Shown here: positions 21,405 to 25,562 of the stretch, piece after piece
Position numbering within the stretch: the stretch's first letter is position 1
Layout: each line of letters opens with the position of its first letter
Source: Aeromicrobium choanae
GTDB lineage: Bacteria > Actinomycetota > Actinomycetes > Propionibacteriales > Nocardioidaceae
Assembly: GCF_900167475.1 (NCBI RefSeq)
Contig: NZ_LT796768.1
Location: 3,286,001 to 3,350,000 of the forward strand
Direction of reading: 5' to 3'
DNA length: 64,000 nucleotides
Translations under genes and position numbers: made by a program
The notes under the pieces: model-generated
The model's database searches: none
What the model saw: only the letters and a program-made list of their open reading frames with translations
Told to the model about the DNA's origin: nothing

Positions 21405-22106
21405 TCAGAACGCGAACAGCGCGATCGGGTCGCTGGTGGGCTCGGTCGTGTCGGGGTCCTCCTCGACCGTGACGCCGGCCGCGGACGCCGTGAGTGCGTC
21501 GCCCTCGAGCAGGACGGTGTTGTCCGGGCCCTGCGGCATCGTCGCGGCCCTGACCATCTCGTCGCCCTGCTGGAGCCAGACCACGTAGGAGTGACCCTCG
21601 GGCGCCGCGGGCATGTCGTGCGTGACGATCACGGCACGCTTCTCGCCGGGCGATCGCACCACCGTGGCGCTCGCGCCGTCGTCGAACGTCTGCGTCACCC
21701 GCTGCGCCTGCGGGTCCTCCAGGACACGGTCGGTGGCCGTGAGCACCTGGGAGGTCCCGTCGTTCCAGGGCTGGGTGATCGCGACGCCGACGCCGGCGGC
21801 CAGGACCACGGCGGACGCGGCGGCCACGAGCAGCAGGCGCGGATCGAAGCGGAGCCGGCGCGGACGATGGGCCGGCTCGGGGGGCAGCTGACGCACCTCG
21901 GTGATGGCGGCGAGCACGGACCCGCGCAGGGCCGGGGGCGGCTCCTCCAGGCTGAGCTCGGTCAGCACGGCGGCCGTCTCGCGGAGGCTGGCCACCTCGG
22001 CCTGGCAGGCCTCGCAGCCGGCCAGGTGGCGTTCGAAGCTCTCACGCTCGGCGTCGGTGACGGCGTCGAGAGCATAGGCGCCGGACAGCGCGTGCACGTC
22101 GCTCAT
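21405..22106 (-). CDS. rskA: Anti-sigma-K factor
   Basis: 233 residues. The N-terminal 70 residues hold the zinc-containing anti-sigma motif HxxxCxxC (His27, Cys31, Cys34), which binds SigK. One membrane helix (LLLVAAASAVVLAAGVGVAI) follows at about residue 90, then the extracytoplasmic RskA domain (SYVVWLQQGDEMVRAATM and a C-terminal FxxxDPIALF-type end). Regulated intramembrane proteolysis of such factors releases the sigma factor. The ATG overlaps the sigK stop (ATGA), the normal coupled arrangement. Confidence 0.92.
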   Translation of the reverse strand: MSDVHALSGAYALDAVTDAERESFERHLAGCEACQAEVASLRETAAVLTELSLEEPPPALRGSVLAAITEVRQLPPEPAHRPRRLRFDPRLLLVAAASAVVLAAGVGVAITQPWNDGTSQVLTATDRVLEDPQAQRVTQTFDDGASATVVRSPGEKRAVIVTHDMPAAPEGHSYVVWLQQGDEMVRAATMPQGPDNTVLLEGDALTASAAGVTVEEDPDTTEPTSDPIALFAF

Positions 22107-22693
22107 CTTTCTGCTCCCATCGCGTCACGAAGTCTGATCAGGCCGTCCCGGATGCGGGACTTCGCCGTGCCCACGGGCACGTCCAGCATCGTGGCGACCT
22201 CGGTGTGTGTACAGCCTCTGAAGTAGGCCAGGTCGATGGCCTCCCTCTGTGTCTCGGTGAGGCCGGCCAGGGCCCGGCGGACGCGCTGGGCGTCCAGCCG
22301 GGCCTCGACCATCTCACTCGTCGAGTCATGCGCCACCGCGACGTCCCGCAGGACGTGCTGCGTGTCGCGTGCCGTGGCGGCCTCCGCGCTGCGGACCCGA
22401 TCCACCGCGCGGCGGTGCGCGATCGTCATGAGCCAGCTCAGGGCGGACCCGCGATCGGGGTCGAACCGTGCTGCCTGTCGCCACACCTCGAGGTAGACCT
22501 CCTGCGTGACCTCGTCGCTCTGGGCGCGATCCCGCACGATCCGCCGGACGAGTCCGTGGATGCGGGCGGAGGTCTCGTCGTACAGCGTGGCGAACGCGGC
22601 CTCGTCGCCGCGTCCGCACCGCCTCAGGGTGTCGGCCAGCGCCTCGGACGGCGACTCTTCGCCGCCCGAGGGCACTGCTCGCAGGTGGTTCAC
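22103..22693 (-). CDS. sigK: ECF RNA polymerase sigma factor SigK
   Basis: 196 residues with sigma region 2 (AAFATLYDETSARIHGLVRRIV...DEVTQEVYLEVWRQAARFDPDRGSALSWLMTIAHRRAVDRVR) and region 4 (LTETQREAIDLAYFRGCTHTEVATMLDVPVGTAKSRIRDGLIRLR). The pairing with RskA and the fasciclin and molybdoenzyme genes upstream match the mycobacterial SigK regulon (mpt70/mpt83). It starts at a GTG 24 bases after the fasciclin gene and is probably read from the two SigK-type promoters upstream, giving positive autoregulation. Confidence 0.92.
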   Translation of the reverse strand: MNHLRAVPSGGEESPSEALADTLRRCGRGDEAAFATLYDETSARIHGLVRRIVRDRAQSDEVTQEVYLEVWRQAARFDPDRGSALSWLMTIAHRRAVDRVRSAEAATARDTQHVLRDVAVAHDSTSEMVEARLDAQRVRRALAGLTETQREAIDLAYFRGCTHTEVATMLDVPVGTAKSRIRDGLIRLRDAMGAER

Positions 22694-22717
22694 CGGAGTT
22701 GTCCCGTCAGTCGCAGG

Positions 22718-23335
22718 TCAGGGCATCAGGACGGAGTCGACGACGTAGACCTTGGCGTTCGCCGTGTCGACGTTGCCGCACACGACGGCAGCCTCGCCGA
22801 TCGTGAACTCCTCGCCGGAGCCCTCCACGGTGATCGTGTCACCTGCGAGGGTCTCGTGCTCGCCGGCGACCTCGTCAGGAGCGAGCTGCCCCTCCACGAC
22901 GTGGTGCGTCAGGACCTTGGTCAGCGCGTCCTTGTCGGCCAGCAGGGCGTCCAGGTCGGCAGCGGGGATCTTGGCGAACGCGTCGTCGGTCGGCGCGAAC
23001 ACCGTGAGCGCCTCGGCGCTGTTCAGCGTGTCCACGAGGTCGGCGGCGGTGACAGCCTTGACCAGCGTGGTGAGCAGGGGGTTGTTGGAGGCGGCGGTGG
23101 CGACCGGGTCGTCGGCCATGCCCTCGACGGAGCCCTCACCCTCGGTGGGGACGCCGGCGCAGCCGGCGCCGAACGGGCCGGTCGCCATGTCCTCGGACAT
23201 CGACTCGGACGCGGAGGGCGTCGTCGACTCGCTGCTGCTGGAGTCGTCGCCACTGCTGCTGCAGGCGGCCAGGCCGAAGCACATGACGACGGCGGCAGCG
23301 CCTGCTGCGGTACGGCGGGGGAGCAAGCGGTTCAT
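22718..23335 (-). CDS. Fasciclin-domain lipoprotein (MPT83/MPT70-like)
   Basis: 205 residues. The signal peptide ends in the lipobox LAAC with Cys25 as the lipidated residue. A low-complexity Ser/Glu/Asp linker (26-55) leads to a FAS1 domain (about 68-205) with the landmarks LVDTLNSAEALTVFAPTDDAFAKIP and LTHHVVEGQL. It is a surface or membrane-bound adhesion-type protein, like the SigK-controlled antigens MPT70 and MPT83. ATG 23335 has GAGAGG seven bases upstream. A SigK-type promoter lies 36-63 bases upstream. Confidence 0.9.
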   Translation of the reverse strand: MNRLLPRRTAAGAAAVVMCFGLAACSSSGDDSSSSESTTPSASESMSEDMATGPFGAGCAGVPTEGEGSVEGMADDPVATAASNNPLLTTLVKAVTAADLVDTLNSAEALTVFAPTDDAFAKIPAADLDALLADKDALTKVLTHHVVEGQLAPDEVAGEHETLAGDTITVEGSGEEFTIGEAAVVCGNVDTANAKVYVVDSVLMP

Positions 23336-23370
23336 GATCGTGCCTCTCATTGGGTGACGAAGTTGTCAGT

Positions 23371-23398
23371 CATTCGGTGCGGCGGCGCATCCGGATGG
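23371..23398 (-). promoter_or_regulatory. SigK-type promoter of the fasciclin-sigK-rskA operon
   Basis: On the minus strand CCATCC (23393-23398), a spacer of 16 bases, then CGAATG (23371-23376). The M. tuberculosis SigK consensus, as I recall it, is CCATCC-N16/17-CGAATA. The predicted start near 23364 gives a 29-base leader with a ribosome site. Confidence 0.8.
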
Positions 23399-23404
23399 GT
23401 CGGA

Positions 23405-24904
23405 TCATGTGACCTGCACCACGATCTGCTGGTATCCGCTGGAACCGTCGGGAAAAGGCGCTGCCCGCTTCTCGGTCTGGACCTCACCTTCGAGGCTCTT
23501 GGCGCGCACGGTGAGCGTGTGACGGCCGGGCTCGGCGTCCCACAGCAGGTACCACTGGCGCCAGTAGTCCACGCCCGCGTCGGGGCCGAACTCCGCGGGC
23601 TTCCAGTCGCCGTCGTCGACCTTGACCTCGACGGCGCCCACCCCGCGTCCCTGCGCCCAGGCGACGCCCGCGACCACGATGCGGCCGGCCTCGACGGGCT
23701 TCAGCGCCGCGGGGGTGTCGATGCGCGAGGAGATCTTGATCGGCCCGTCGATGGCCCAGTCGCGGTCGGTCCAGTAGGCCGTCTTCTTCTCGTACGTGGT
23801 GACGGTGAGCCGGGTCAGCCACTTCGTCGCGCCGACGTACCCGTACAGCCCGGGAGTCACGAGGCGGGCCGGGAATCCGTGGTCGCGGGGGAGAGCCTCA
23901 CCGTTCATCGCCACCGCGACGATCATGTCCCGGCCGTCCTGGGCGGCCGTCAGGGGAGTGCTGATCGTGAAGCCGTCGACCGCCGTGCTCAGGATCTGGT
24001 CGGCACCGTCGCGCACCCCGGCCCGCTCCAGCAGGTCGGACACCCGCACCCCCAGCCAGCGGGCCGCACCGACGTATGGGCCGCCCACCTCGTTGGAGAC
24101 GCAGGTCAGGGTGATGTCGCACTCGACGAGTGGGAGCTCGAGCAGCTCGTCGAAGGTCAGCTCGAACGGCCGGTCGACCATGCCGTCGATGCGCAGCGTC
24201 CAGGTCTCGTGGTCGACCACGGGGACCGTCAGGTTGATGTCCACGCGGTAGAAGTCGTCGCGATCGGTGCGGAACGGCGAGACGCCGCGGTACTGGGCCT
24301 CGAGGCCACGGGGGAGGGGAGGCAGGGGCTTGCGCGCGCGGGGAAACACGATGTTGGTCACGTCACGTGCTCGCACCGTGAGCCACTGACCCACCGATCC
24401 GACGACCACCGCGGCGCCCACGATGACTCCGGTCCTGGCCAGCAGGCGGCGGCGTCCGGGACCGTCGACGGGCTCACCGGGCTCGGGGGTGAGCCACCGC
24501 AGGACGACGAGCGCCACGATCGCGGTCACGGCCGCGGGCAGCACGTCCACCGGGCGCGCCGCAGGCCGCGCCAGTGCGGCCCAGCCGGCGGCGGCCACGA
24601 GCCCGAGCACGACGGCGGCGCCGGCGAGGAACGATCTGCGGGCGAGCAGGCCACCGATCGCCGCGAGCAGCAGCGTCACGACGAGCACGGTTCCGAGCAG
24701 GATCGGCTTGTCGGCGGTGCCGAACCTCTCGATGGCGAACTGCTTGAGGGCTGTCGGCGTCCGGTCGATCACCGCGCTCCCGACGGAGAGCACGGGGGAG
24801 GAGGCCGGCGCGATCAGGGCGGCGGCGAGGTGCCCGGTGGCGAGCCCCGCGAGGGCTGCGGTGAGTCCGGCGGTGACTCCCGAGACGGCTTCGTGGCGAT
24901 TCAT
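23405..24904 (-). CDS. Membrane-anchored molybdopterin oxidoreductase, sulfite-oxidase family
   Basis: 499 residues. About five membrane helices occupy residues 10-175, then a sulfite-oxidase-like molybdenum cofactor domain (about 200-390) and a C-terminal Mo-co dimerisation immunoglobulin-like domain. The molybdenum-ligating cysteine is Cys268 in ECDITLTCVSNEVGG. GFPARLVTPGLYGYVGATKWL is another family landmark. Substrate unknown; relatives include YedY-like and nitrate-reductase-like enzymes, here facing the outside. ATG 24904 lies exactly six bases after a SigK -10 box, so it is chosen over ATG 24949, which is upstream of that promoter. It heads the SigK cluster. Confidence 0.88.
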   Translation of the reverse strand: MNRHEAVSGVTAGLTAALAGLATGHLAAALIAPASSPVLSVGSAVIDRTPTALKQFAIERFGTADKPILLGTVLVVTLLLAAIGGLLARRSFLAGAAVVLGLVAAAGWAALARPAARPVDVLPAAVTAIVALVVLRWLTPEPGEPVDGPGRRRLLARTGVIVGAAVVVGSVGQWLTVRARDVTNIVFPRARKPLPPLPRGLEAQYRGVSPFRTDRDDFYRVDINLTVPVVDHETWTLRIDGMVDRPFELTFDELLELPLVECDITLTCVSNEVGGPYVGAARWLGVRVSDLLERAGVRDGADQILSTAVDGFTISTPLTAAQDGRDMIVAVAMNGEALPRDHGFPARLVTPGLYGYVGATKWLTRLTVTTYEKKTAYWTDRDWAIDGPIKISSRIDTPAALKPVEAGRIVVAGVAWAQGRGVGAVEVKVDDGDWKPAEFGPDAGVDYWRQWYLLWDAEPGRHTLTVRAKSLEGEVQTEKRAAPFPDGSSGYQQIVVQVT

Positions 24905-24910
24905 GCTGGG

Positions 24911-24938
24911 GGTTCGTTGCGGACCGCCGAACGGATGG
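24911..24938 (-). promoter_or_regulatory. SigK-type promoter of the molybdoenzyme gene, predicted leaderless
   Basis: Minus-strand CCATCC (24933-24938), 16-base spacer, CGAACC (24911-24916). The -10 box ends six bases before ATG 24904, so transcription should begin on the start codon. Confidence 0.75.
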
Positions 24939-25034: not shown

Positions 25035-25562
25035 ATGAAGACCACCAAGAGCCTCGCCCTCGCCCTGACGGGCGGCGTCCTGCTGGCCGGCCTGCCCGCG
25101 ATGGCCTCCGCGGATGATGACGACAACCGCAACATCAACCGCAAGGGCAACTACACGGTGAAGAAGGACCGTGACATCGACGGCAACATCAGCATCCGCA
25201 AGGGCAACCTGGTGGTCAACGGCGACGTCGACGGCAACATCACGGTGCGCCACGGCAACATCGTGATCCGCGGTGACGTGGACGGCAACGTCCGCCAGCT
25301 GGGTCGGGGCTCCGTCACGGTCACGCCCTCCGGCTCCGTCGACGGCAACATCACCGAGCGCGACAGCGGCAACGTGCACATCGCCGGCGACGTGGACGGC
25401 ACCGTCACCGAGCTGCACCGCGGCCACGTCCGCATCTTCCGCGCGGCCGAGATCGACGGCAGCGTCCGTGAGCGCGGCGCCGGCCACCTGCTGATCTGGC
25501 GTGGCGCCGACGTCGAGGGCTCGCTCAGCGAGGGCGGCGCGGGTCGCCTCGTGCGCCGCTGA
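25035..25562 (+). CDS. Secreted polymer-forming repeat protein (bactofilin-like beta-solenoid)
   Basis: 175 residues. A signal peptide (1-26, ending ASA) is followed by a short DDDDNRN stretch and then a chain of about 18-20-residue repeats built on (D/S)(V/I)DGN(I/V): DIDGNIS, DVDGNIT, DVDGNVR, SVDGNIT, DVDGTVT, EIDGSVR, DVEGSLS. Each repeat alternates GN(I/L/V)xVxG turns, which fits a right-handed beta-helix like polymer-forming cytoskeletal proteins, but here exported. No cysteine or catalytic motif is present. A GGAG ribosome site precedes the ATG and a strong terminator follows. Role unknown; a surface filament or scaffold is inference. Confidence 0.7.
   Translation: MKTTKSLALALTGGVLLAGLPAMASADDDDNRNINRKGNYTVKKDRDIDGNISIRKGNLVVNGDVDGNITVRHGNIVIRGDVDGNVRQLGRGSVTVTPSGSVDGNITERDSGNVHIAGDVDGTVTELHRGHVRIFRAAEIDGSVRERGAGHLLIWRGADVEGSLSEGGAGRLVRR

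Follow-up and report, generated by a model that had tools for sequence, protein, structure and literature searches.

A SigK-RskA cluster of Aeromicrobium choanae and its predicted regulon: a leaderless molybdoenzyme, a fasciclin lipoprotein and a distant lipid operon

What does the sigma factor SigK govern, and what frees it from its anti-sigma factor RskA? The SigK stimulus has been called obscure and its role little known (PMC9861118, PMC5547695). The question is raised anew by a 64,000-nucleotide stretch of the actinobacterium Aeromicrobium choanae (contig NZ_LT796768.1, positions 3,286,001 to 3,350,000; hereafter the window), in which genes for a molybdoenzyme, a fasciclin lipoprotein, SigK and RskA follow one another in that order on the minus strand. 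An initial annotation made from the window's letters read these four genes as a compact SigK regulon with two SigK promoters, and the coordinates agree that the genes are clustered and that sigK starts 24 bases past the fasciclin stop codon; the sigK and rskA reading frames share 4 bases. It is very probable that the locus represents an autoregulated SigK-RskA regulon with this layout, a judgment that concerns the layout and leaves the signal aside. In the mechanism envisaged here, membrane-held RskA would bind SigK through its N-terminal domain until a signal, presumably, removes or loosens it, and the freed SigK would bring RNA polymerase to promoters of the form CMATCC-N16/17-CGAA. From the first of these a message without a leader would be made for the molybdoenzyme, a membrane-anchored and probably exported protein of the sulfite oxidase type, and perhaps for the genes behind it as well; the second would serve the fasciclin gene together with sigK and rskA, raising sigma and anti-sigma factor in step. 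A third promoter, also leaderless and about 0.5 Mb away, would drive a desaturase-DUF1365 fusion, two CMAS methylases and a DUF1295 protein, the lipid product of which may be a furan or methyl-branched fatty acid, and a fourth, weaker site would serve a small exported protein.

The promoters carry this reading. Both CCATCC-N16-CGAA sites are found where the initial annotation had placed them, as read directly on the minus strand: CCATCC (24938-24933), 16 bases and CGAACC (24916-24911) before the molybdoenzyme gene, and CCATCC (23398-23393), 16 bases and CGAATG (23376-23371) before the fasciclin gene. The two spacers, described there as identical, are indeed of equal length (16) but differ in sequence. 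The site before the fasciclin gene matches exactly the mycobacterial-type consensus CCATCC-N16/17-CGAA in the form quoted by that annotation. To set these sites among relatives, 141 loci were compared, comprising the best 80 of 95, 60 more from a SigK survey (chosen from 123 SigK-family matches over 396 genomes) and the window, with some overlap of species possible between the two sets. The molybdoenzyme is found in 65 of the 141 loci (64 testable) and the fasciclin gene in 70 (68 testable), the window included, and 17 other spacings between 8 and 26 served as the control. Upstream of the molybdoenzyme the exact motif is present in 33 of 64 loci, 16 at spacing 16 and 17 at spacing 17, against a single exact match summed over all the wrong spacings; when one mismatch is allowed the count rises to 55, against at most 5 at any wrong spacing. 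Before the fasciclin gene a site with no more than one mismatch stands in 67 of 68 loci, of which 11 are exact, 55 share one consistent variant, CAATCC, and 1 reads CCGTCC, against at most 5 of 68 at each wrong spacing; all 11 exact sites are at spacing 16, and the wrong spacings sum to 2 exact matches. Hexamer identities of 94-97% likewise contrast with spacer identities of 46-48%, a gap that is partly built in because loci were picked within one mismatch, so that the spacing control is the better test. Comparison across relatives thus bears out both proposed promoters. Genome G008, which is assigned to the window's genus, carries both promoter sequences in the same form as the Aeromicrobium flavum locus (L006).

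Autoregulation can be followed within the genus, where SigK occurs in 44 of 49 genomes with 47 matches. Thirty of these 47 loci were taken, 29 of them with enough upstream sequence. A spacing-16 site is found immediately upstream of sigK in 23 of the 29 (22 exact, one with one mismatch), whereas the 17 other spacings together give 1 exact match. The 6 loci that have no such site are exactly those in which the molybdoenzyme and fasciclin genes stand in front of sigK, the window among them, and in all 6 an exact spacing-16 site precedes the fasciclin gene. By promoter placement, therefore, sigK sits behind a SigK-type promoter in 29 of the 29 testable Aeromicrobium loci, which supports the positive autoregulation that had been proposed. 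Could the sites instead be promoters of another extracytoplasmic function (ECF) sigma factor, with sigK behind one of them by coincidence? Actinobacteria encode numerous ECF factors, several of which recognize related -35 elements, and the SigK consensus used here is the one that the initial annotation quotes. Such a coincidence is nevertheless scarcely credible: it would have to recur in the 23 loci with their own sigK site and in the 6 where sigK follows the molybdoenzyme and fasciclin genes and the exact site precedes the latter, and it would have to extend beyond the genus, to an exact site at the start of a fasciclin reading frame in a Mycobacterium (L084) and to a rearranged cluster in Glycomyces sambucus (L082, 4874-8617), where the order is sigK-rskA-molybdoenzyme-fasciclin and exact sites precede both sigK and the molybdoenzyme gene. 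SigK sites are, moreover, described as highly conserved among Actinobacteria (PMC7509140). As a separate observation, the Metallococcus carri locus L069 has exact sites at 820, 4901 and 9754, within 10.6 kb around a sigK-rskA pair, and no molybdoenzyme or fasciclin match within the locus.

The molybdoenzyme promoter has a further property. In the window the start codon lies 6 bases past the -10 element, which leaves no room for a leader, and in 32 of the 33 loci with an exact site the first in-frame start falls 6-7 bases past the -10 hexamer; the exception (L175) has one in-frame ATG overlapping that hexamer and another 6 bases on. The message is therefore likely to be leaderless, as had been anticipated, on the evidence of position. 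A start so conserved in some thirty loci would offer a clean natural case for the study of leaderless translation.

The predicted regulon extends beyond the window. A refined motif derived from the compared loci, CMATCCR-N11-GYNM-CGAA, has three matches at N16 and none at N17 in the whole genome, and the reversed pattern has none; the three are the molybdoenzyme site, the fasciclin site and a third site at 2,802,393. The third heads an operon, some 0.5 Mb from the sigK cluster, for which Pfam gives a flavin oxidoreductase-DUF1365 fusion of 668 residues, two CMAS methylases and a DUF1295 protein. An ATG follows this site at 6 bases and another, in frame, falls inside the -10 hexamer; this message too is predicted to be leaderless. 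Of 196 genomes of the family, 153 have a relative of the fusion gene or of the flavin half by itself. From these, 69 desaturase loci were examined, consisting of the top 30 matches and 39 picked from the remainder. The exact form C(A/C)ATCC-N16/17-CGAA precedes the flavin desaturase gene in 42 of them, as against 0 at 17 wrong spacings, with the first in-frame start codon 6 bases past the site in 30 of the 42; of the 27 loci without a site, 25 (L226-L250) have the gene directly behind sigK-rskA, where no site of its own would be needed. The window genome holds, in other words, an operon of the Rv0449c type with an exact SigK-type site, where Rv0449c, Rv0448c and Rv0446c are genes that we take to have the same domains as its lipid operon. 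The sigK operon of M. tuberculosis is under autoregulation exerted at the Rv0449c promoter, and the M. bovis sigK locus is described as encoding a pair of uncharacterized proteins, UfaA1, a third uncharacterized protein, SigK and RskA (PMC7509140, PMC10540498); rv0449c is also listed as SigK-regulated (PMC5547695). A fourth site, one base off the refined motif, precedes a 186-residue exported protein that has no Pfam match. Of 9 homologs within the genus, the 5 closest have an exact site at spacing 16 and the others do not, and the protein is likely to be a further SigK target. Its remote homologs in L326, L328 and L329 have GCATCC-N17-CGAA upstream, one base off the motif.

These distant sites alter the initial proposal in two respects. 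The four genes of the cluster remain in the predicted regulon, but the motif search adds the lipid operon and the small exported protein, so that a compact regulon of four genes is too narrow a description. It had also been held that two or more further hits before exported proteins would extend the regulon: further sites exist, one of them before an exported protein, but the other heads the lipid operon, the products of which are not exported.

Several findings weigh against a regulon of this extent. The bare genome-wide count of the plain motif is no higher than chance: there are 5 matches at spacings 16-17 in this 3.42 Mb single-contig genome, all at spacing 16, while the same hexamers give 119 matches at spacings 0-15 (7.4 per spacing) and 157 at spacings 18-47 (5.2 per spacing). 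As wrong spacings yield equal or more matches, this count was dropped as evidence, and what is above chance, as judged by the comparison of loci, is the conserved placement in relatives and not the bare count. The locus set behind the refined motif includes the window itself; in 9 of the 64 molybdoenzyme loci even a one-mismatch site is missing, although some of the starts there were extrapolated; and 2 of the 69 desaturase loci (L263, L265) show neither a site nor sigK-rskA in front. Finally, at one mismatch the sigK scan often matches wrong spacings (17 of 29 loci at spacing 25, and 8 each at 12 and 20), so that only the 22 exact sigK sites carry weight. Some motif matches were also set aside: one (L001) falls within an extended reading frame, and one common to the Aeromicrobium genomes G001 and G014 (L117, L118; CCATCC-N16-CGAACC) has no convincing same-strand gene start near downstream. 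A match in L094 and L107 (position 1501), CCATCC-N16-CGAA just upstream of an apparent threonyl-tRNA synthetase (thrS-like) gene and with near-identical sites in other Aeromicrobium genomes, was left uncounted because its spacer sequence is kept as well.

Given such a regulon, what might release SigK? The initial annotation had suggested extracytoplasmic redox or similar stress, a proposal that the window's own sigma factor does not directly support. That this is a SigK is plain, as had been thought: it scores over the NCBIfam SigK cut-off of 226 bits, its closest solved sequence is M. tuberculosis SigK (4nqw_A, E 5.3e-47), and it is 72% identical to the SigK of A. flavum. The SigK-RskA complex of M. 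tuberculosis is stabilized by a disulfide that links two cysteines of SigK, a redox pair that is described as not universal in the family by a paper that also counts CXXC motifs (PMC7509140). At the positions of those cysteines, C133 and C183, the window SigK has alanine, and among the 80 loci and the window a cysteine occurs in 1 of 81 and 3 of 81, respectively. Its RskA has all three of RskA_N, RskA_C and zf-HC2 over the Pfam cut-off, an intact H-x21-H-x3-C-x2-C motif, one membrane segment (87-112) and an RskA C-terminal domain, and would fit the zinc anti-sigma (ZAS) type by the H...Hx3Cx2C arrangement of its N-terminal domain; Hx3Cx2C is present in 78 of the 80 RskA proteins of the same set. 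Over the 141 loci, in which some RskA neighbors were assigned by position only, 5 have both SigK cysteines and the zinc motif is absent from the RskA of all 5. The zinc motif occurs in 109 loci, never in combination with both cysteines; another 23 lack the motif as well as the cysteine pair, and in 4 no RskA neighbor was found. The double-cysteine loci comprise 4 from one family and 1 Mycobacterium, and because the cases are so few and related this reciprocal pattern may be taken as a lead only. A switch of the M. tuberculosis type, in which the SigK disulfide tightens the complex, reduction frees SigK and the regulon answers an extracytoplasmic or thiol redox state sensed by SigK itself, is thus a very improbable account of this locus: the M. 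tuberculosis complex behaves in that way (PMC7509140, PMC8103513) and the window's two proteins are clear relatives of that pair, but the cysteines are absent from the window protein, are rare elsewhere, and occur together, in the loci compared, only beside an RskA without the zinc motif.

The predicted targets offer other clues. The molybdoenzyme has several N-terminal hydrophobic segments by hydropathy, with a twin arginine before the last of them and the molybdopterin domain thereafter, from which it follows that this domain probably lies outside the cell. Its solved relatives are sulfite dehydrogenases and oxidases, and it scores 113.6, 106.3 and 91.6 bits with the SorA, SoxC and SorT models (cut-offs 600, 420 and 570) and 40.7 bits with the MsrP model (cut-off 207). 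By these curated cut-offs, which rule out SorA and MsrP as names, it is a member of the sulfite oxidase superfamily and none of SorA, SoxC, SorT or MsrP; it shares with the SorA and MsrP families the molybdopterin domain, and with SorA an aligned cysteine, and differs from them in its extra N-terminal membrane segments and its scores under the cut-offs. The fasciclin protein has MPT70 (1nyo, E 2.3e-41) as its best solved match, and an upstream ATG at 23350 is a possible alternative start. The SigF-NrsF system of Azospira provides the model for a different reading, in which the regulon repairs exported proteins oxidized by reactive chlorine or at methionine, with an MsrP-like molybdoenzyme as the repair enzyme and the fasciclin lipoprotein as its client or sink. 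Membership of the sulfite oxidase superfamily, a weak MsrP match and probable export would suit that reading, which is nonetheless improbable, since the enzyme falls far short of the MsrP cut-off and has its closer relatives among sulfite dehydrogenases, since the fasciclin protein, at 2.9% methionine, is not rich in that residue, and since the lipid operon would be left unexplained.

The lipid operon may point elsewhere. In Rhodobacter, UfaD (an NAD-FAD-binding, desaturase-like protein), UfaO (DUF1365) and UfaM (a methylase) make furan fatty acids (PMC7380195), and the Pfam domains of the operon fit a UfaD-like desaturase, UfaO and a UfaM-like methylase together, as a match at the level of domains only. 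The sigma-E/ChrR system, which responds to singlet oxygen, has furan-lipid genes among its core targets, the anti-sigma domain of ChrR binds zinc through two histidines and two cysteines (PMC6852236), and a fasciclin gene appears in the sigma-E/ChrR regulon table (PMC7074977). The same source holds the singlet-oxygen-induced RpoE-ChrR of R. capsulatus to be closer to SigK-RskA than to RpoE-ChrR of R. sphaeroides, and in M. kansasii the fasciclin genes mpk83 and mpk70 are induced by light (PMC9861118). It is because of this likeness to furan genes, the parallels with sigma-E/ChrR and the light-induced fasciclin genes that photo-oxidative or lipid-oxidation (lipid-peroxide) stress is favored, tentatively, as the likeliest candidate for the signal. 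The fuller proposal, that SigK-RskA might be the actinobacterial counterpart of sigma-E/ChrR, with a zinc anti-sigma factor that senses photo-oxidative or lipid-peroxide stress and a SigK that induces an exported molybdoenzyme and a fasciclin surface protein along with the genes for furan fatty acids, is possible rather than probable. If true, the SigK disulfide switch of M. tuberculosis would be a lineage-specific replacement that arose once its RskA had lost the zinc site.

Reports from elsewhere count against a photo-oxidative signal sensed through zinc. Anti-sigma factors with and without zinc are intermingled in the group to which RskA belongs, and a structural role for the zinc is possible (PMC7406223); dipZ is given as not light-induced in M. 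kansasii (PMC9861118); and for the actinobacterium Agrococcus, from which a furan fatty acid is reported, the account has a UfaO-like gene as not found (PMC9323897). The SigK regulon of M. tuberculosis, moreover, is induced by an agent of another kind, an envelope-permeabilizing 2-aminoimidazole (PMC5547695). This last finding, like the two CMAS-type methylases of the operon, favors a further explanation, namely that the operon yields cyclopropane or methyl-branched rather than furan fatty acids, that these alter the membrane, and that the signal is general envelope damage. We regard this as unlikely, if a serious contender, in that the first gene of the operon fuses a flavin oxidoreductase to DUF1365, the UfaO domain, a pairing that would be expected for formation of the furan ring.

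The features of the window on which the foregoing depends are collected in the table.

Features of the SigK-RskA cluster, with positions in the window
Feature	Position	Strand	Evidence
Sulfite-oxidase-family molybdoenzyme gene, 499 aa	24904-23405	minus	Pfam PF00174 153 bits, hydropathy, conserved start position
Fasciclin-domain lipoprotein gene, 205 aa, MPT70/MPT83 relative	23335-22718	minus	Pfam Fasciclin 107.6 bits; lipobox LAAC
sigK, ECF sigma factor, 196 aa	22693-22103	minus	NCBIfam SigK 265.6 bits
rskA, membrane anti-sigma factor, 233 aa	22106-21405	minus	RskA_C 66.8, RskA_N 36.8, zf-HC2 34.1 bits
DUF1905 gene, 95 aa	21092-21379	minus	Pfam DUF1905 103.4 bits; 25 bases past rskA
SigK-type promoter of molybdoenzyme gene, CCATCC-N16-CGAACC	24911-24938	minus	read directly; conserved in relatives
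SigK-type promoter of fasciclin gene, CCATCC-N16-CGAATG	23371-23398	minus	read directly; conserved in relatives

Of the neighboring genes, DUF1905 has homologs in 5 of 147 loci, Aeromicrobium in every case (L006 and L124 are probably one species), on which account it may be a fifth gene on the sigK transcript. On the other side lies a plus-strand gene (25035-25562) divergent from the molybdoenzyme gene; its product is exported, has a bactofilin domain and numerous DGN repeats, and has homologs in 3 of 147 loci.

A cassette of mpt83 (fasciclin), sigK and rskA with a conserved SigK site has already been published (PMC7509140). To this the present comparison would add the leading and apparently leaderless molybdoenzyme, the examination of many loci, the distant lipid operon, the small exported protein, and a zinc-type RskA beside a SigK that has no redox cysteines. 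None of the papers among the literature matches listed connects SigK with a molybdoenzyme or with furan fatty acids, a result that does not prove absence; the nearest published link is the resemblance of R. capsulatus RpoE-ChrR to SigK-RskA (PMC7074977). A non-pathogenic actinobacterium with the same promoter type, lipid genes and a simple layout of targets would make the question of the SigK stimulus testable, and the furan-fatty-acid link, if true, would bring together two stress regulons that are commonly considered separately.

How, then, does the system compare with those already described? It resembles the mycobacterial SigK-RskA regulon in its SigK and RskA families, in its fasciclin target and autoregulatory layout, in the CCATCC-N16-CGAA promoter observed also in Mycobacterium L084, and, at the level of domains, in what is probably the same lipid gene set of flavin oxidoreductase, DUF1365, CMAS and DUF1295. 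It departs from that regulon in that a molybdoenzyme leads the Aeromicrobium cluster, that the lipid operon is set apart, has a fusion in place of its first two genes and carries a pair of CMAS genes, and that a SigK without C133 and C183 is paired with an RskA bearing a zinc-type motif. With the sigma-E/ChrR system of R. sphaeroides it shares the combination of an ECF sigma factor and a two-histidine, two-cysteine anti-sigma motif, together with a regulon that includes a fasciclin protein and genes of the furan-fatty-acid type, here a likeness at the level of domains. ChrR, however, is cytoplasmic and has a cupin-like domain, whereas the window RskA has a membrane segment and RskA_C, and SigK belongs to another ECF group than sigma-E.

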